From: Acidobacteriota bacterium
GTDB taxonomy: Bacteria > Acidobacteriota > Vicinamibacteria > Vicinamibacterales > UBA823
NCBI GenBank assembly: GCA_002730525.1
Contig: PCAK01000043.1
Location: 1 to 64,000 of the forward strand
DNA length: 64,000 nucleotides
Direction: 5' to 3'
The translations under genes were made by a program, and so were the position numbers. The notes below the pieces were generated by a model, which did not search any database, was not told where the DNA came from, and saw only the letters and a program-made list of their open reading frames with translations. Numbering within the stretch: position 1 is the first letter of the stretch; each line of letters starts with the position of its first letter. Of the stretch, positions 3,530-50,341 are shown piece after piece.

Positions 3530-3591
3530 TGGAAGCGAGTCTCGACCGGCCGCGTCCCTTGCCGGCCGAAGGGCTCTCATTTTGCCATGCT

Positions 3592-3597
3592 ATACTC
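3592..3597 (+). promoter_or_regulatory. Candidate -10 element (TATACT) of the B12 operon
   Basis: TATACT followed by CC lies just ahead of the cobalamin riboswitch, where a -10 box is expected. The same TATACTC sequence precedes three other genes in this window. No convincing -35 is visible, so this is tentative. Confidence 0.35.
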
Positions 3598-3611
3598 CGG
3601 CAGACAATCGA

Positions 3612-3790
3612 CGCTTCCCGGTGGCCATGCGAAGTGGGTGCGATTCCCACACGGTGCCGCCACTGTAAGCGGGGAGCGAGGCGACTGGAGTGCTCCGCTG
3701 GTTGGGGGGGGGCCGCCACTGTGCTCGAAGCGAGCATGGGAAGGCGTCGTTGCTTCGCGTCGATCCGCAAGTCAGGATACCTGGCCACTG
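3612..3790 (+). promoter_or_regulatory. Cobalamin (AdoCbl) riboswitch
   Basis: The conserved blocks occur in the right order: GAAGTGGGTGCGATTCCCAC, then GCCGCCACTGTAAGCGGGG (3656 onward), then a second CCACTGT...GGGAAGGCG arm (3714-3747), then the B12 box AGTCAGGATACCTGGCC ending about 3786. The last lies about 80 bases before the TonB receptor start. Such elements shut off downstream expression when adenosylcobalamin is bound. Here it controls the btu operon. The exact ends are approximate. Confidence 0.93.
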
Positions 3791-3865
3791 GGCTCGTCCT
3801 CTTTCGCCCGCTCCGGCCGATGGCCGCGGGCGGGTTCGGCGCGCGATCACGCCGAAAGGAGCCCG

Positions 3866-6136
3866 ATGGCTGCACCGTTTCGCCCGTTCTCCACGCTCGC
3901 CTTCCTGCGTCTGCTCGTGCTCGTCGCGATCCTGTCGCCACTTACCGGGCTGGCCGCCGACCTCAACGGCGCCGTCGTCGACCCTGACGGGCGTCCGGTA
4001 CCGAACGCCAGAGTCTTGGTGTCGCGGGCCGGTGCGGTCAGCGCCACGACCACGACCGACGCCCAGGGGCACTTCGGGCTAGCGCTCGCCGCCGGCCGCT
4101 ACGAGTTGCGAGCCTCGGTCCCGGGCTTCCGGAGCGAGGTCGTTCCACTGGAGATCGGTGCTGACGACCTGCCGCGCGTCACCATCGCGCTACGGGTAAG
4201 CGCCATCGAGGAATCGGTGGTGGTCTCGGCCTCGCCGGTCGACCGCCCCCTGTCACGAACGCCTGACAGCGTCACGGTGATCGACGCCGACGAGTTACGA
4301 GCGCATCAGGTCGAAACGGTGTCGGACGCGCTCCGACTCGTACCTGGGCTCACCGTGACGCAGAGCGGTGGCCGCGGCGGCGTGACGTCACTGTTCCCAC
4401 GAGGCGGCGAGTCGAACTTCACGCTGGTCTTGATCGACGGCGTTCGCGCCAACGCGTTCGGCGGGGGTTTCGACTTCGCCCATCTGCCCATCGCGGATAT
4501 CGAGCGGATCGAGGTGGTCCGCGGGCCGCAGAGCGCCCTGTACGGATCGGACGCCATCGGCTCCGTCGTGCAGATCGTCACGCGCCGGGAAGGGCCCACC
4601 CGTGCGGAGGGCCTGGTGGAGGGCGGCGGTTTCGGCACGACCCGCGCCGCTGGGTCGGTGACCGGGTCGCACAACGGCTGGAGTTGGGGCACGGCGGGTG
4701 AGCGACTCGACACCGACGGGTTCACCGGCGAGGCGCCGGCGACTGGTGAACCGGTCACGAACGACGACTACCAGCGCACCGACGGCTCATTCAACCTCGG
4801 CTGGGAAGGGGGACGCGACGTCGCGATCCGCGGGACCGGCCGGCTCAGCTCGTTCGAACGAGGGTTCCCCGGCCCGTTCGGCAGCGACCCGCTCGGCAAC
4901 GTCTCGGCGATCGATACGATCTCGCGCGGCGAGAACGACATCAAGCTTTTCTCGGTCGACGCCGAGTTCCCGTGGAGCCAGCGCGTCACGCAGGACATAC
5001 AGATCGCGTGGAGCAACCTCGACGGCACCTTCACGAGCCCGTTCGGTACCTCGGAGTCCGAGTCGCGCCGCGTCACGGTGCGCGGTCAGGCCGACGCCGC
5101 GCTCCTTCCCCGCGTGGGCCTGTCGATCGGCGGCGAACTGCTCCGGGAAAGTGCCGAGAGCACGTTCATCACCGGCCCCTCGGTCGATCGCGTGCCGGTC
5201 GAGCGCAGCGCGCTTGGCGTCTTCGGCGAGGTGCGCTACGACGCGGGCGATCGGCTCTACGTGACCGCCGGCGCTCGGGCCGAACGCATTCACCGCGACC
5301 CGCTGGCGCCCGACCCGAATGCGTTCTCGCCTCGCCCGATCTTCAACGCCTCCACCGTCGTCTCGGTGAACCCCAAGCTCGCGGTCGCCTATTTCCTTCA
5401 GCCGCCGGGCCGGCGCGAGCGGCGATGGACCCGGGTGCACGGCAGCGTTGGCACCGGCATAAGGCCGCCGGGTGCGTTCGAGATCGCCTTCACCGACAAC
5501 CCGTCCCTGCGGCCTGAGCGGAACCGCAGCTTCGACGTTGGTGTCGAGCAGACCTTCGCGGGCGGCGCCTTCATCGTCGACGCCACCGGCTTCTACAACC
5601 GCTACGACGACCTCATCATCAGCGTGGGCCGCTCCTTCCAGGATGTCAGCCAGTTCCGGACCGACAATATTTCGAACGCGCGGGCACGCGGGCTTGAACT
5701 GGTGGCCTCCGCACGCACGGCCTGGGGTCTCGCCGCAACGGTGGCCTATACCTGGCTCGACACGCAGGTCCTCGCGGTCGATCAATCGGACAAAGCGCCG
5801 CCGCCGTTCGAAGCCGGCGAGCCTCTCATCCGCCGGCCGCGTCACCAGGGTGCGATCGATCTGGTCTACCGACGTGGGCCGGTGACCGCCTTCGGCCAGG
5901 TGCTGGCGCACGGCCAGAACCTCGACGTCGAACCGTCGTTCGGCACATTCGGCGGGGTCTACACGAACCCTGGGTACGGCGTCGTCAATCTGGGCGGCAC
6001 AATCGCCGTGCGGTCTGAACTCGAGGTGTTCGCGCGGATCACGAACCTACTCGACCGCAGCTACGAGGAAACCTTCGGATTCCCTGCGCTGGGGCGCAGC
6101 GCAATCGTCGGAGTGCGCGTTGCTACAGGCTACTGA
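3866..6136 (+). CDS. btuB: TonB-dependent outer-membrane receptor for cobalamin (BtuB-like)
   Basis: A 756-residue outer-membrane receptor. An N-terminal signal peptide (hydrophobic stretch ending near LTGLAA) is followed by a carboxypeptidase-like regulatory domain of about 80 residues. Then come a plug domain (VIDADELRAHQVETVSDALR, GGESNFTLVLIDGVR) and a C-terminal beta-barrel. The start ATG at 3866 has a GAAAGGAG ribosome binding site; upstream codons in this frame lie inside the riboswitch. Location directly behind a cobalamin riboswitch and ahead of an ABC importer gives the substrate assignment. From sequence alone it would only be a TonB receptor. Its stop overlaps the next gene's start by 17 bases. 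Confidence 0.9.
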   Translation: MAAPFRPFSTLAFLRLLVLVAILSPLTGLAADLNGAVVDPDGRPVPNARVLVSRAGAVSATTTTDAQGHFGLALAAGRYELRASVPGFRSEVVPLEIGADDLPRVTIALRVSAIEESVVVSASPVDRPLSRTPDSVTVIDADELRAHQVETVSDALRLVPGLTVTQSGGRGGVTSLFPRGGESNFTLVLIDGVRANAFGGGFDFAHLPIADIERIEVVRGPQSALYGSDAIGSVVQIVTRREGPTRAEGLVEGGGFGTTRAAGSVTGSHNGWSWGTAGERLDTDGFTGEAPATGEPVTNDDYQRTDGSFNLGWEGGRDVAIRGTGRLSSFERGFPGPFGSDPLGNVSAIDTISRGENDIKLFSVDAEFPWSQRVTQDIQIAWSNLDGTFTSPFGTSESESRRVTVRGQADAALLPRVGLSIGGELLRESAESTFITGPSVDRVPVERSALGVFGEVRYDAGDRLYVTAGARAERIHRDPLAPDPNAFSPRPIFNASTVVSVNPKLAVAYFLQPPGRRERRWTRVHGSVGTGIRPPGAFEIAFTDNPSLRPERNRSFDVGVEQTFAGGAFIVDATGFYNRYDDLIISVGRSFQDVSQFRTDNISNARARGLELVASARTAWGLAATVAYTWLDTQVLAVDQSDKAPPPFEAGEPLIRRPRHQGAIDLVYRRGPVTAFGQVLAHGQNLDVEPSFGTFGGVYTNPGYGVVNLGGTIAVRSELEVFARITNLLDRSYEETFGFPALGRSAIVGVRVATGY

Positions 6137-43153: not shown

Positions 43154-44500
43154 ATGCTCGAAACGATTGTGCAAGCCAATGCTTGGCTGAACGGCTACGT
43201 CTGGGGCGCGCCGATGATCGTGCTCCTCATGGGCACGGGCCTACTGCTGACGGTGCTCACCGGCGCGGTGCAGTTCCGCTATCTCGGCTTCGCCCTGCGG
43301 GAAGTGCTGGGCAAGCTGACCCAGAAGAGCACGGGCGAAGGCGACGTGACCCCGTTCCAGGCGGTGGCAACTGCGCTCGCCTCGACCGTCGGCGTGGGCA
43401 ACATCGCCGGCGTGGCCACCGCGCTGACCCTGGGCGGTCCCGGTGCGCTGTTCTGGCTCTGGATCTCCGGCCTGCTCGGCATGTGTACGAAGTTCGCCGA
43501 GATCGTCATCGCGCTGCACTATCGCGAGCCGGACTCGACGGGCACGATGCGCGGCGGCGCGATGTACACGCTGAGCAAGGGCCTGGGGCTGCCGTGGCTG
43601 GGCACGATCTTCGCGCTGCTGACCTCGCTGGCCGCCTTCGGCATCGGCAACATGGTGCAAGCGAACTCGGTGGCCGACAGCCTCGAGTCGAGCTTCGGGA
43701 TCGCCCCGGCAGTAACCGGCGTCGTCCTGGCAGTGCTCACGGCGGCGGTCATCCTCGGCGGCATCAAGCGGATCGGCGAGGTCACGCAGGTGCTCGTGCC
43801 GTTCATGAGCATCCTGTACCTCGGCGGCGGCCTGATCATCATCGCGCTCCACATCGCCGACATCCCCGGCGCCATCGCACTGGTCTTCGAGGGCGCGTTC
43901 AGCGGCACGGCCGCCACCGGCGGCTTTGCCGGCGCGACCGTCGGCCTGGCGCTCCGCTTCGGAATCGCGCGTGGCCTGTTCTCGAACGAGGCCGGCCTGG
44001 GCAGCGCGCCGATGGTGCACTCGGCAGCGAAGACTGATCATCCGGTGCGGCAGGGGCTCTACGGGATCTTCGAGGTGTTCGTGGACACGGTTCTGGTCTG
44101 CACGATCACCGGTCTGGCGATCCTGGTCACGGGCGCCTGGACGAGCGGCCTGGACGGCGCGACGCTCTCCGGCGAGGCGTTCCGCCTCGGGCTGCCGGGC
44201 GGCCTCGGCAACATCATCGTCACCGCCAGCGTCCTGCTCTTCTCGTTCTCTACGGTAATCGGCTGGAGCTACTACGGTGAGACTGGCATCGTCTACCTGT
44301 TCGGCGCGAAGGTTGCGACGCCCTACCGGATCGCCTGGCTGATCTTCATCTACCTGGGCGCCACCGGCTCGCTACAGCTCATCTGGAGCGTCGCCGACAC
44401 GCTGAACGGCCTGATGGCGATTCCGAACCTGGTGTCGGTGCTCTTCTCGATCCCGATCCTGCTGAAGCTGACGAAGGAATTCTTCGGCAAGCAGCGCTGA
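43154..44500 (+). CDS. Sodium:alanine/glycine symporter (AGCS family)
   Basis: A 448-residue inner-membrane symporter with about ten helices, importing small neutral amino acids with Na+. Family blocks seen are GDVTPFQAVATALASTVGVG, FSNEAGLGSAPMVHSAAKTD and GETGIVYLFGAKVATPYR. It starts 74 bases after argF but has its own -10 candidate, and a hairpin separates them. Substrate within the family is not known. The last 129 bases overlap an antisense gene. Confidence 0.92.
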   Translation: MLETIVQANAWLNGYVWGAPMIVLLMGTGLLLTVLTGAVQFRYLGFALREVLGKLTQKSTGEGDVTPFQAVATALASTVGVGNIAGVATALTLGGPGALFWLWISGLLGMCTKFAEIVIALHYREPDSTGTMRGGAMYTLSKGLGLPWLGTIFALLTSLAAFGIGNMVQANSVADSLESSFGIAPAVTGVVLAVLTAAVILGGIKRIGEVTQVLVPFMSILYLGGGLIIIALHIADIPGAIALVFEGAFSGTAATGGFAGATVGLALRFGIARGLFSNEAGLGSAPMVHSAAKTDHPVRQGLYGIFEVFVDTVLVCTITGLAILVTGAWTSGLDGATLSGEAFRLGLPGGLGNIIVTASVLLFSFSTVIGWSYYGETGIVYLFGAKVATPYRIAWLIFIYLGATGSLQLIWSVADTLNGLMAIPNLVSVLFSIPILLKLTKEFFGKQR

Positions 44501-45046
44501 GGCCGTGATCGTTAGGGCGCGAGGCTGGGCGTTGCGGCCAAGGACCAGGCGGCTCTGCTTCGCGCCAGCCGATCGCGTGAAGGTCATCACGTTGCCACTG
44601 GGGAAATCGAGCCGCAAGCGATCGCCGTCCCGGCTCACTGTGCACGGTTCCTGGGGAGCGTCGTCGTCGGGTCCGCGTGCGACCATCCTGAGTTCGCTTG
44701 CAGCCAGCCCGGGCATCGCGTCGCCAGCCGACAGGGGGTAGCGATGCGTGAAGACCAGTTGGTCGCCTGAGGTCGAGAACGACCCGCCCTCGCCAGAGCC
44801 GCGCTTCGCGTCGGTGCCGTCCATCACGAAGAAGAGCACGGTCCAGTCGTTTCCGGTGAAGAAGATCCGGCCGGCCACCCGATGCTCGGTGCCGTCGGCC
44901 AGGATGTAGCGCTGGGCGTCCCACGCCCCCTGGATGTCGACGTCCTGGGCCGCCGCCGCGGGCCCGGCCGCGGCCACCAGGCCGAGTACGACGAGCCACA
45001 ACCCCACGCGGATCGCGCGCTCAGGGTTTCGTGTTCGCGTCTTCAT
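44372..45046 (-). CDS. Secreted hypothetical protein, 3' end antisense to the symporter gene
   Basis: A 224-residue protein with a clear signal peptide (VGLWLVVLGLVAAAGPAAAAQ) and a compact beta-rich body (WDAQRYILADGTEHRVAGRI, FTGNDWTVLFFVMDG, LRLDFPSGNVMTFTR). Family not recognised. The body appears complete by about residue 175. The last 45 residues are Arg/Gln/His-rich and lie antisense to the convergent symporter gene, so the natural stop may have been lost. The start overlaps the preceding selenoprotein gene by 26 bases; ATG 45052 is an alternative. Confidence 0.6.
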   Translation of the reverse strand: MKTRTRNPERAIRVGLWLVVLGLVAAAGPAAAAQDVDIQGAWDAQRYILADGTEHRVAGRIFFTGNDWTVLFFVMDGTDAKRGSGEGGSFSTSGDQLVFTHRYPLSAGDAMPGLAASELRMVARGPDDDAPQEPCTVSRDGDRLRLDFPSGNVMTFTRSAGAKQSRLVLGRNAQPRALTITASALLAEEFLRQLQQDRDREEHRHQVRNRHQAVQRVGDAPDEL

Positions 45047-45614
45047 CTGCATCCCAGAACTCCTCCAGCGGCACGCCCAGCCCATCAGCCAGGCGGTTGA
45101 CGAACGCGTAGTAGCCGGTCACCAGATTGATGTCCAGCACGGCCCGATCGGAGAACCCGGCGATCCGGAGGCGATCGATGTCAGCCTCGGCGACGGTCCA
45201 CGGCTCGCGCGCGAGCTTCACGGCGTAGTCCAGCATCGCACGGTCGGCCTCCGCCAGATCGGCGTCGCGATAGTCCACGGCCAACTGCTCGACCACGCGG
45301 TCATCACACTTGAGTCGACGCAGACCCGCTGCGTGATGGCGGATTCAATAGTGGCACTGGTTCGCGGCCGATACCGCGACCGCGACCATTTCCCGCTGAA
45401 TCCTGGAGAGTGGCGACCGGCCGTACATCACCAGCTTGTAGAAATCGAGGTGCACCTGCAGTGACTTCGGGTGCAGGCTGTGGATCTTCAGAATGTTGTC
45501 GACGTGACCGCGCGGATCGCGCGACGCCGCGTACAGCGTGGCGAGCTCGGGATCGAGATCCGGCGCGTCCTCATCGACCGTTTCGATCCATGGCCGGCGG
45601 GCATCATCGGGCAT
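45021..45614 (-). CDS. AhpD-like (carboxymuconolactone decarboxylase family) selenoprotein with in-frame TGA
   Basis: Read through TGA at 45345-45347, this is a continuous 197-residue AhpD-like peroxidase-related protein. The catalytic set matches AhpD spacing exactly: E75, then C87-H-Y-Sec90, then H94 (AhpD has E118, C130, C133, H137). So UGA occupies the resolving or attacking cysteine of CxxC. Both sides belong to one family and one frame: REMVAVAVSAANQCHY before, and YAFVNRLADGLGVPLEEFWD after. A SECIS-like hairpin follows the UGA. A standard gene finder would report two separate pieces. It should reduce peroxides or disulfides in the cytosol. It lies 52 bases after a sulfurtransferase gene. 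SelA, SelB, SelC and SelD genes are not in this window. Confidence 0.88.
45302..45347 (-). promoter_or_regulatory. Selenocysteine codon and bacterial SECIS-like hairpin
   Basis: After the UGA (45345-45347), ACGCAG pairs perfectly with CUGCGU around the loop CGGGU (45318-45334). A lower stem CAUC/GAUG can close it. The loop starts 17 bases after UGA and has G in its first two bases, within bacterial SECIS limits. The GGUCUGC string sits at positions 19-25 after UGA, the same offset and sequence as in E. coli fdhF. Confidence 0.82.
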
Positions 45615-45666
45615 GACGGTGGCACGGTACGCCAAGGAGGTCGGCGCGTGCAAGCGGACGGCGCCG

Positions 45667-46641
45667 TCAGGGATTCCGGTTGGCCGCGACGGTGCCTTCC
45701 CACGTGGCCACCGGCAGATCGTCGCGGTTGCCCCACTCGTCCCACGACCCGAGATACAACCGGACCCGGTCGTAGCCGACGAGGTGCATCGCGAAGAGTT
45801 CGTGCGCCGAGCGGCCGCCGCCTTCGCAGTAGGCGATGATCTCGTCGCCCGGGTCGAGAGCGGCAAACAGCGCGCGCAGCTCCGATGCCGACCTGAACGT
45901 CTTCAGCTCCGGGTCGAACGTCTCTTCCCAGTAGATCGCGGTCGCCGAGGGAATGATGCCGCCGCGCGTCGCGCCTCTGAGGTCGCGGCCCGCCAGTTCG
46001 TCGACCGTCCGGGTGTCGACGAACCGGGTGCCGGGCCGATCGATCGCGTCGCGGACCTCCTCGGCCGTGACGATCCAGGCCATGTCCGGCTTCGGCTCGA
46101 ACTCGGTCCGTGTGACCTCGGTCGATTCGGCGGTCGTCGGCAGGTCCTCGCGGGTCCAGGCGTCCCAGCCACCATCGAGGATCGCGACCTCGGTGTGGCC
46201 GAGTGTGCGCAGGACCAGCCAGGGCCGGGTGCCGTACACCCCGCCGCGGTCGTCGTAGAAGATGACGCGCGTGTCGTTGCCGATCCCGATCGCCTCGAGC
46301 TCTTCTGTAAAGGCTTCCGCAGACGGAAGGAACGTCGGCGGGTTCTCCGCGTCGCGGGAGGTCGCGATGTCGAGATAGACCGCGCCCGGAATGTGACTCT
46401 CGTCGTAGCCGGCACGACGCGTGTCGACGATCCGGATGGTGGGGTCGTCCAGATGACCGGCGAGCCAGACCGTGTCGACCAGCATCTCCGGTCTCGTGTA
46501 ACCGGCGTCGGTTGCGGCGGCGGATTCGGGCTCGGCCGACGCCACGTCGTTCACCGATGCAGGCCGGCCGCAGGCGGAAGCGACGAGCCCTAACGCCAGC
46601 ACCCAGACGGTGCGAGCATGCGGCCGCGACCGCCGGCTCAT
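45667..46641 (-). CDS. Exported lipoprotein sulfurtransferase, two rhodanese domains
   Basis: A 324-residue thiosulfate or mercaptopyruvate sulfurtransferase. A signal peptide ends with lipobox LVASAC (Cys24). The inactive N-terminal rhodanese domain (VDTRRAGYDESHIPGAVYLD) precedes a C-terminal active domain with Cys272 in CEGGGRS. The six-residue loop differs from the CRxGxRxS of TST and CGTGVT of MST, so the acceptor is unclear. ATG 46641 is preferred because it follows the MFS stop; 46671 would overlap it. The selenoprotein gene lies just downstream, suggesting a shared role in handling reactive sulfur or peroxide, which is inference. Confidence 0.88.
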   Translation of the reverse strand: MSRRSRPHARTVWVLALGLVASACGRPASVNDVASAEPESAAATDAGYTRPEMLVDTVWLAGHLDDPTIRIVDTRRAGYDESHIPGAVYLDIATSRDAENPPTFLPSAEAFTEELEAIGIGNDTRVIFYDDRGGVYGTRPWLVLRTLGHTEVAILDGGWDAWTREDLPTTAESTEVTRTEFEPKPDMAWIVTAEEVRDAIDRPGTRFVDTRTVDELAGRDLRGATRGGIIPSATAIYWEETFDPELKTFRSASELRALFAALDPGDEIIAYCEGGGRSAHELFAMHLVGYDRVRLYLGSWDEWGNRDDLPVATWEGTVAANRNP

Positions 46642-47977: not shown

Positions 47978-50251
47978 TCACCGAAACACATCGAACAGGT
48001 GGCTGTACTTGACGGTGAAGCTGCGCCCGGCCGATTCCGGCGTCAGCCCGTCGAGGCCGCGCGTGTCGTTGTAGACGAGAAACAGCCCGGTGTTGGCATC
48101 GCCGAGAAGGCCGAATCTGAGATTCGCAGACCAGAGGTCGGCCTGATCGTTGTACTGGATCAAGCTCTGCACGAACATCCGTGGCGTAAACGAGTACGAC
48201 GTCCGCGAGATGATGAGATCAGTGATGAAACTGCCACCGGGCAAGGTGACGTCGTTATGGCTCACGCTCAGTTCGGTGTTGAAGGCCTCGCCGACCCTCA
48301 GCCGCACCGACGGCGCAATGCTCGTGCGCTCGCCGCCGAAGAAGCCGCCGGCCAAGACGGTGAGCCGCGCGCTCAGAGGCGCGCCCTGGTCGGAGAACAA
48401 GATGATGATCGCTTCCGAGTGGTCGTAGGTGCCGGCGGGCACGATGACACCGGGGGAGATCTCGAACGGCTCGGGGACCCCCTCTGTGGTCAGGTTCATC
48501 CCGGTCTGGACCGTGGCACCGTTCCTGAACTCGGTGTGGTTGTCGATGTGAATGAACTGGGTTTCCTGGAAGCCCTCGAGGTCCCAGAAGACGTCGTAGT
48601 TCACGTGCGGGCGCAGTTCGAGCACATTGAACGGCGCGTCGGGCCCAAGCCGAAATACTCGTTGCACGCGACCGCTCACACTGCGGAATCCGCTGCGCGT
48701 CAGGAAGCCGACCTCGGGATTGAAGTTGTCTCCGATCTCCGTGTAGGCGTTCCGGATCTCCCACTCCTCCGAGTTGTACGTGAAGCCCAGGCTGTAGGCG
48801 TGCTCCCGACCGCTGAGGCCGGGCGTCTGTGTGCGGGCAACGAAACTGGTGACCGTCGTGTTCTGGCCGATGCCCAAGCGTCCGTCGAACCCGTAGGTCC
48901 GGTTGTAGTCGTCCTCGCCGGCCTGATCGCCCGATGCCTGCCGGTTGACGAAGATGCCGCCTATGTTCGACCGGTTGGCAAGGTCCTTCCGGACTCGCGC
49001 GACGGTGAAGTTGTTCGACGGCGCCACGCCGTCGACCGACTCGGTCTGCATGTTGAGCAGGCCGACGTTGACGTTGCCACCCACCTGACCCGAGAGCCGG
49101 CCGCCGCCGACGATCGGCACCACCTCGCCTGACGGGCCGATGCCGATCCGCCGGCTGAAGAACAGTTCGGCCGAACCGGTGTTCCCCACCCCGAACAGCC
49201 CGGCATTCTCGAGGAAGAACGGCCGCTTCTCCGGGAAGAACAGATTGAACCGGTCCAGGTTGATCTGCTGGTCATCGACCTCGACCTGCGCGAAGTCGGT
49301 GTTGTAGGTGGCGTCCAGAGTCAGACTCGGCGTCAGGCTGTACTTGAGATCGACGCCGGCATCACCCAGCACCACATCGCCATCCTCGAACTCGTTCGAG
49401 ATCGCGTCGCCGAGGACGTAGGGCATGATCTTCAGATTCTTCTGGGGTGGTAGCACCAGGCCCTGCAGTTGGCCCGCCAGCGACAGCCGGTAGATGCTGA
49501 ACTGGCGCGGCAATGCTGCCCAGAACGCCGTCTCGTTCCGCCGCCGGATGTTCCGCTGGAAGTTGAGACCCCAGGTCTGACTTTCACCGTTGGGGTAGCG
49601 CAGCGTTCTGAACGGGATCGCGAATTCGGCGCTCCACCCGATCTCGGACACCTCGGTCCGGACCTCCCAGGAACCGTCCCAGTTGAGGTTGAACCCACGA
49701 CCCGCGCCCCCCTGCTGACGCCCGCCGCCGCCACCCCGGCCGCCGCCGACGAAGCCGTCGCTGCCCTGGCCTTCGTTCGTCACCTGACCGTCGTACTCGA
49801 GACCGGAGGGGTTCGTCCCGAAGACGAAGCCGTTCTGCTGGTCGAGGTAGGTGTCGAGGATGATCTGAAACGAGTCGGTTTCGGTGAGAGGCGAGTCGCG
49901 ACGACTGTCCGACACGATGATCGTCGACGGATCGCCGTCGTAGCAGATGATGCCGAAGTACAACGTGTCGGCGGAATAGGCGATCCGCACCTCGGTCCGC
50001 TCAGACGAAGGCTGCCCTTCGTCGGGGGTCGTCTGCGTGAACCCGGTCACCGGTGCGATCGCCGTCCAGACCGGATCGTCGACCACGCGACCGTCCATCG
50101 CCGGCACCACGTCAATCGGCTCCGCCGTCGCGCCGGGGAACTCCACCGCGCGCTCCTGCGCCGCAGCTGCGGCACCGCTCGCCGCGATGGCCACTGCGAT
50201 CAGAATCACGATTCGCCAGTGGTCGGATGTCCGATACGCCTCTCGCCTCAT
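47978..50251 (-). CDS. DUF5916 outer-membrane protein with N-terminal CBM9-like domain
   Basis: A 757-residue exported protein. A signal peptide (VILIAVAIAASGAAAAAQ) is followed by a CBM9-like sandwich (DGRVVDDPVWTAIAPVTGF, ADTLYFGIICYDGDPS, DSFQIILDTYLDQQNGFVF) containing a Gly/Gln-rich loop. Then comes the large DUF5916 beta-rich region, with NLDRFNLFFPEKRPFFLENAG and many alternating strands consistent with a barrel. Family members are common in Acidobacteria, Bacteroidetes and Gemmatimonadetes near peptidases and transporters, but their function is not established. ATG 50251 chosen over 50257. Confidence 0.88.
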   Translation of the reverse strand: MRREAYRTSDHWRIVILIAVAIAASGAAAAAQERAVEFPGATAEPIDVVPAMDGRVVDDPVWTAIAPVTGFTQTTPDEGQPSSERTEVRIAYSADTLYFGIICYDGDPSTIIVSDSRRDSPLTETDSFQIILDTYLDQQNGFVFGTNPSGLEYDGQVTNEGQGSDGFVGGGRGGGGGRQQGGAGRGFNLNWDGSWEVRTEVSEIGWSAEFAIPFRTLRYPNGESQTWGLNFQRNIRRRNETAFWAALPRQFSIYRLSLAGQLQGLVLPPQKNLKIMPYVLGDAISNEFEDGDVVLGDAGVDLKYSLTPSLTLDATYNTDFAQVEVDDQQINLDRFNLFFPEKRPFFLENAGLFGVGNTGSAELFFSRRIGIGPSGEVVPIVGGGRLSGQVGGNVNVGLLNMQTESVDGVAPSNNFTVARVRKDLANRSNIGGIFVNRQASGDQAGEDDYNRTYGFDGRLGIGQNTTVTSFVARTQTPGLSGREHAYSLGFTYNSEEWEIRNAYTEIGDNFNPEVGFLTRSGFRSVSGRVQRVFRLGPDAPFNVLELRPHVNYDVFWDLEGFQETQFIHIDNHTEFRNGATVQTGMNLTTEGVPEPFEISPGVIVPAGTYDHSEAIIILFSDQGAPLSARLTVLAGGFFGGERTSIAPSVRLRVGEAFNTELSVSHNDVTLPGGSFITDLIISRTSYSFTPRMFVQSLIQYNDQADLWSANLRFGLLGDANTGLFLVYNDTRGLDGLTPESAGRSFTVKYSHLFDVFR

Positions 50252-50341
50252 CTGCACCGCCTACTCCTCGCCGATCCGCTCGGCGCGGCTCACGCCGCAC
50301 GGCCGATCTTCTCATCATAGTCCGAGCGAAGGGACGCGACG

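Follow-up and report, generated by a model that had tools for sequence, protein, structure and literature searches.

The window, by which we mean the whole 64,000-nucleotide stretch that was analysed, carries on its minus strand a predicted selenoprotein gene of the AhpD-like family at positions 45021 to 45614. The gene starts at an ATG (45614-45612), ends at a TGA (45023-45021), and encodes 197 amino acids plus the stop when its one internal UGA is read as selenocysteine (Sec). This single in-frame TGA lies at 45347-45345 and is codon 90; the frame is otherwise free of stops to 45021, compared with four and seven stops across the same stretch in the two remaining minus-strand frames. The read-through protein is MPDDARRPWIETVDED...VSAANQCHYU-IRHHAAGLRRL...VPLEEFWDADEDANTKP. 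The coordinates proposed in an earlier, sequence-only reading are correct, and the strand, which that reading did not state, is minus. Counterparts of the ATG are found at the equivalent place in three homologous loci (L031, L032 and L034), and inspection by eye of the sequence before ATG 45614 revealed no clear Shine-Dalgarno sequence. A search against PHROGs gave no match, and a phage origin was dropped.

Plain ORF calling with translation table 11 divides the gene into two pieces, 45345-45866 and 45021-45296, split at the TGA codon, an example of standard ORF calling breaking up a predicted selenoprotein gene at its UGA. The composition and divergence of the DNA are similar on the two sides of this codon. 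The GC content by codon position is 0.69/0.39/0.81 upstream of the TGA and 0.76/0.40/0.80 downstream, and the differences from the relative L031, counted by codon position, are 18/15/38 before and 22/11/44 after the TGA, concentrated at third positions on either side. Together, this third-position bias and the codon GC content argue that the stretch past the TGA is coding and under constraint.

The gene is flanked by two genes on the same strand. A predicted exported protein is encoded downstream at 44372 to 45046 in the ORF list; its gene overlaps the end of the selenoprotein gene, is conserved at this downstream place in most of the family (L060, L064, L067, L068 and L069), and may be co-transcribed with it. 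Its product matches no Pfam family. Upstream, at 45667 to 46638, lies the gene of an exported rhodanese-type sulfurtransferase (PF00581, 2.6e-33). The sequence-only reading had drawn attention to a lone position of the selenoprotein gene after this sulfurtransferase, a view that does not hold: the downstream gene overlaps it and is conserved, and the rhodanese adjoins it only in the window and in the one same-genus genome (G001), and does not lie next to it in four other same-family genomes (L067-L070). A functional link to the rhodanese was rejected because the family does not conserve this neighbour, which probably lies outside the function of the selenoprotein. In the four other same-family genomes with an intact gene, the gene is directly preceded by a homologue of 47978-50257, and in three of these four it is followed by the exported protein and the alanine symporter. 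In the window, 47978-50257 is a gene for a large protein on the minus strand.

Family, active-site residues and predicted fold

The read-through protein matches TIGR01926, a family of peroxidase-related enzymes, with 150.7 bits (3.6e-44; cut-off 81.8), and is also matched by PF02627, the CMD domain (50.9 bits), and by ahpD_dom. Two related models are matched below their cut-offs: TIGR00777, which describes AhpD of the Mycobacterium tuberculosis type (19.4 bits; cut-off 191.95), and NF041238 (53.7 bits; cut-off 175), of which only a part is matched.

The TGA at 45345 to 45347 would encode Sec90 of a CHYU motif, in a column where homologues carry either TGA or, in their Cys forms, TGC or TGT. 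The codon of its partner, Cys87, lies at 45354 to 45356, that of Glu75, the counterpart of Glu118 in M. tuberculosis AhpD, at 45390 to 45392, and that of His94, the counterpart of AhpD His137, at 45333 to 45335. All three are invariant in alignment A1, the relay residues being those described for AhpD (PMC3141380), and Glu75, Cys87, residue 90 and His94 are invariant in 27 aligned sequences. The predicted equality of the spacing E75-C87-UGA90-H94 with E118-C130-C133-H137 of AhpD is exact. At the fifth relay position, M. tuberculosis AhpD has His132 and PA0269 has Tyr50 (PMC3141380); Tyr89 occupies this place here, so that E75, C87, Y89, U90 and H94 follow the M. tuberculosis AhpD spacing Glu-Cys-(His/Tyr)-Cys-His.

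An AlphaFold model, built with Cys substituted for Sec, has a pLDDT of 91.9 and a pTM of 0.87, and in this model the protein is predicted to fold as an all-helical CMD/AhpD domain. Its best structural matches in the PDB are 3c1l, 2pfx, 2prr, 6k40 and 2oyo, with TM scores between 0.81 and 0.84, and sestrin is a weaker structural match.

Persistence of the UGA and the means to decode it

Homologues were sought in 100 genomes, the window's own included, and a match with an in-frame TGA is found in 31 of them. The UGA occupies the same column in all four intact same-family homologues (G002, G003, G004 and G007) and in 14 further UGA-bearing loci, the UGA-bearing homologues being about 36-75% identical. 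Every locus that was read completely, a set that leaves aside the weakest TGA matches, has the TGA as the fourth residue of C-x-[YF]-U (the count for L039 includes its final stop). The Cys homologues have TGC or TGT at this column. The U/Cys pairing in the alignment is thus exact, and the UGA stands, as the sequence-only reading had it, at the place of the second Cys of CxxC. Only two changes of the Sec/Cys label are needed on a tree built from 27 proteins, and Sec is therefore taken to be an old and stable trait in this group. In one genome without a selA match, the homologue (L053 1501-1932, G018:C125) reads TRYC, with Cys at the Sec column and Thr in place of the first motif Cys.

A sequencing or assembly error, in which TGC or TGT has been misread as TGA, would need one base change only, and the assembly is a draft of 45 contigs. 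Against this, TGA occurs at the same codon in independent genomes (G002, G003, G004/G007 and others), which makes an error the least probable of the explanations considered.

Truncation at the UGA in close relatives, which had been named as a pattern that would speak against selenocysteine, is not seen. The gene is broken in one sister species, the only same-genus genome (G001), and four further members of the family have it intact. In the G001 copy, residues 113-195 alone match, and true similarity begins close to residue 123. Its N-terminal half (L064 3553-3801, G001:C16) has been replaced, not truncated at the UGA. The opposite strand of the replacing sequence resembles, by eye, the C terminus of a sulfatase. 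With its N-terminal half lost, the gene is therefore dispensable in G001. This broken copy, together with the termination of the gene at the UGA by a standard ORF caller, is what could be expected of a pseudogene, in which a nonsense mutation makes the UGA a true stop and leaves an inactive fragment only. The recurrence of the UGA in this column across many genomes (about 36-75% identity), the coding constraint past the UGA, and the presence of the Sec machinery weigh against this explanation, and we regard it as very improbable.

The machinery was searched in the window's own assembly, which is 99.2% complete, and all four components that the sequence-only reading had asked after are present: selA (552 bits), selB (331.7 bits), selD (351.5 bits) and a tRNA-Sec (61.6 bits) with the anticodon TCA (UCA). 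The selD gene (L027 1501-2430, G000:C10:38726-39655) has one in-frame TGA, at the SACAGU active site, and SelD of this genome is itself likely to be a selenoprotein; given this TGA, the organism would thus use Sec beyond the AhpD-like gene. Across genomes, selA is above cut-off in 31 of 31 genomes with the TGA form, compared with 12 of 19 that have only TGA-less matches (Fisher p = 0.0005, or 0.0017 with the fragmentary selA of G063 counted as present; the genomes are related, and these values serve as a guide only).

A candidate SECIS hairpin downstream of the UGA

A hairpin, ACGCAG-CGGGU-CUGCGU, occupies 45318 to 45334 of the minus strand (+11 to +27, counted from the UGA) and is proposed as the bacterial SECIS element on the basis of pair conservation and a compensatory change. 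As the sequence-only reading had noticed, ACGCAG and CUGCGU enclose CGGGU, forming six base pairs with a five-nucleotide loop. Bacterial SECIS elements have been described as hairpins that closely follow the UGA and have a G in a small apical loop (PMC1088965), and both the position and the small G-containing loop are found here.

The homologues were sorted by hairpin type after their sequences had been seen, and in 12 of the 13 homologues of the +11 to +27 type all six pairs are formed. At each of those 12 loci, synonymous recoding reaches six of six pairs with a probability of 0.004-0.02. Four sequences differ at both sides of the fourth pair, with G-C replacing C-G, as expected for compensation. 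Slid registers pair at most 51.5% of cells, compared with 100% in the proposed register, and the covariation score was reached by none of 500 shuffles, a count that is not a formal probability because the rows are related. At the foot of the hairpin, all 11 rows of alignment A2 have the Arg codon CGT, a rare codon that accounts for 10 of the 189 Arg codons in the genes nearby. These observations support selection for the hairpin beyond coding needs, as judged from the alignments.

Folding energy was dropped as evidence for the hairpin since it is not significant, and pair conservation was used in its place: the z-score is unremarkable (-0.96), the energy of the 39 nucleotides after the UGA is not unusual under synonymous recoding (p 0.91), and z-scores do not differ significantly between UGA and Cys forms (p 0.11). 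When the window was searched against Rfam with gathering thresholds, no SECIS match was returned; the window's only match at this threshold is a cobalamin riboswitch at 3606-3802 on the plus strand (58.4 bits). The sequence-only reading had also pointed to the string GGUCUGC at the same offset from the UGA as in Escherichia coli fdhF. The offset stands: the string spans +19 to +25 in each RNA. Its letters vary among the homologues, which have GGCCUGC, GGUCUCC, GGACUCC or GUUUCUGC at this position, and in our reading it is paired differently here than in the fdhF RNA. Given this variation among the homologues, GGUCUGC is accorded little weight as a recognition element common with fdhF.

The window's own genome contains a paralogue (L065, ~3590-4132; G000:C5:69586-70128), a second AhpD-like selenoprotein with a CHYU motif and about 42% identity. 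A second group of homologues, which includes this paralogue, pairs at +18 to +37, with synonymous-recoding probabilities of 0.06-0.16. We tentatively suggest, at rather less than even odds, that Sec-containing AhpD-like subfamilies in one bacterial order have two hairpin positions (+11 to +27 and +18 to +37), the SECIS element having re-formed at least once within one protein family while Sec was kept.

SelB-dependent decoding of UGA generally competes with release factor 2. Decoding at this locus might on that ground be inefficient or conditional, so that an 89-residue truncated form and the full-length Sec form coexist, perhaps as a selenium-dependent form of regulation. Such a fragment would however be without half of the active site and, judging from the model, more than half of the fold, and no sign of a role for it is seen in the sequence; a dual product of this kind is unlikely. 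The preferred explanation, to which we assign a probability of about 0.95, is that the gene encodes a TIGR01926 AhpD-like selenoprotein whose UGA90 is decoded as Sec by the organism's own SelA, SelB, SelD and tRNA-Sec via the hairpin, providing a Cys87/Sec90 redox site. The interpretation of the locus as an AhpD-like selenoprotein gene, put forward from the letters of the DNA alone, is thereby supported.

Predicted function and relation to known AhpD-like proteins

For the AhpD-like selenoprotein, SelB, acting at the hairpin, would deliver Sec-tRNA to the UGA, and Cys87 and Sec90 of the product would form a selenenylsulfide or, when reduced, a selenol-thiol couple. Glu75, Tyr89 and His94 may serve as an AhpD-type proton relay, such that the pair in Cys87-His-Tyr-Sec90, together with Glu75 and His94, would constitute an AhpD redox site. 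Cycling between the selenol/thiol and selenenylsulfide states could, to judge from homologues, reduce peroxides directly or recycle a peroxiredoxin-type partner. The protein is likely to function as a thiol- or lipoyl-linked peroxidase or reductase of the AhpD type. The peroxidase or peroxiredoxin-reductase role is suggested by analogy with three cases. PA0269 shows weak reduction of H2O2 (PMC3141380). In Deinococcus radiodurans, a mutant that lacks the AhpD-like protein shows increased sensitivity to H2O2, and rescue by proteins altered at the two motif Cys residues falls far short of that by the wild type (PMC8945050). AhpD itself is the reductant of AhpC (PMC8945050).

Two of the structural relatives are known Cys forms. 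The top PDB match by both structure and sequence is 3c1l, Mlr4105 of Mesorhizobium loti (1.5e-34), a Cys protein. The D. radiodurans AhpD-like protein, 6k40, has the same fold (TM 0.84) and a family-level sequence match (1.1e-24) but is 30% identical and also has Cys for Sec. M. tuberculosis AhpD (TIGR00777) has the relay spacing Glu-Cys-x-x-Cys-His in common with the window protein, which falls under the TIGR00777 cut-off; the catalytic helices lie at different places in the two chains (PMC3141380). NF041238, the AhpD-related CFYUT (seleno)protein, is a related domain with a Sec motif, of which the match here is partial and below cut-off.

The AhpD-like CxxU family is not new, as the sequence-only reading had recognized. 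It was first reported in 2005 from the Sargasso Sea survey with 27 sequences (PMC1088965), comprises 299 sequences in the GOS survey as 'AhpD-like 1', COG2128 (PMC2398784), and is tabulated among predicted prokaryotic selenoproteins as 'AhpD-like protein, TIGR01926, CxxU' in a 2026 review (PMC13188914). Knowledge of the family itself is unchanged by the new locus; what is gained is the predicted AhpD-like selenoprotein, its paralogue and a probable Sec-containing SelD, as additions to the selenoproteome of an Acidobacteriota family that has received little study. Similar to the known AhpD-like selenoproteins (COG2128/TIGR01926), the window protein belongs to the same family model and has a CxxU motif, with Sec predicted at the second position and U/Cys pairing among homologues; relative to them, the organism and the locus alone are new.
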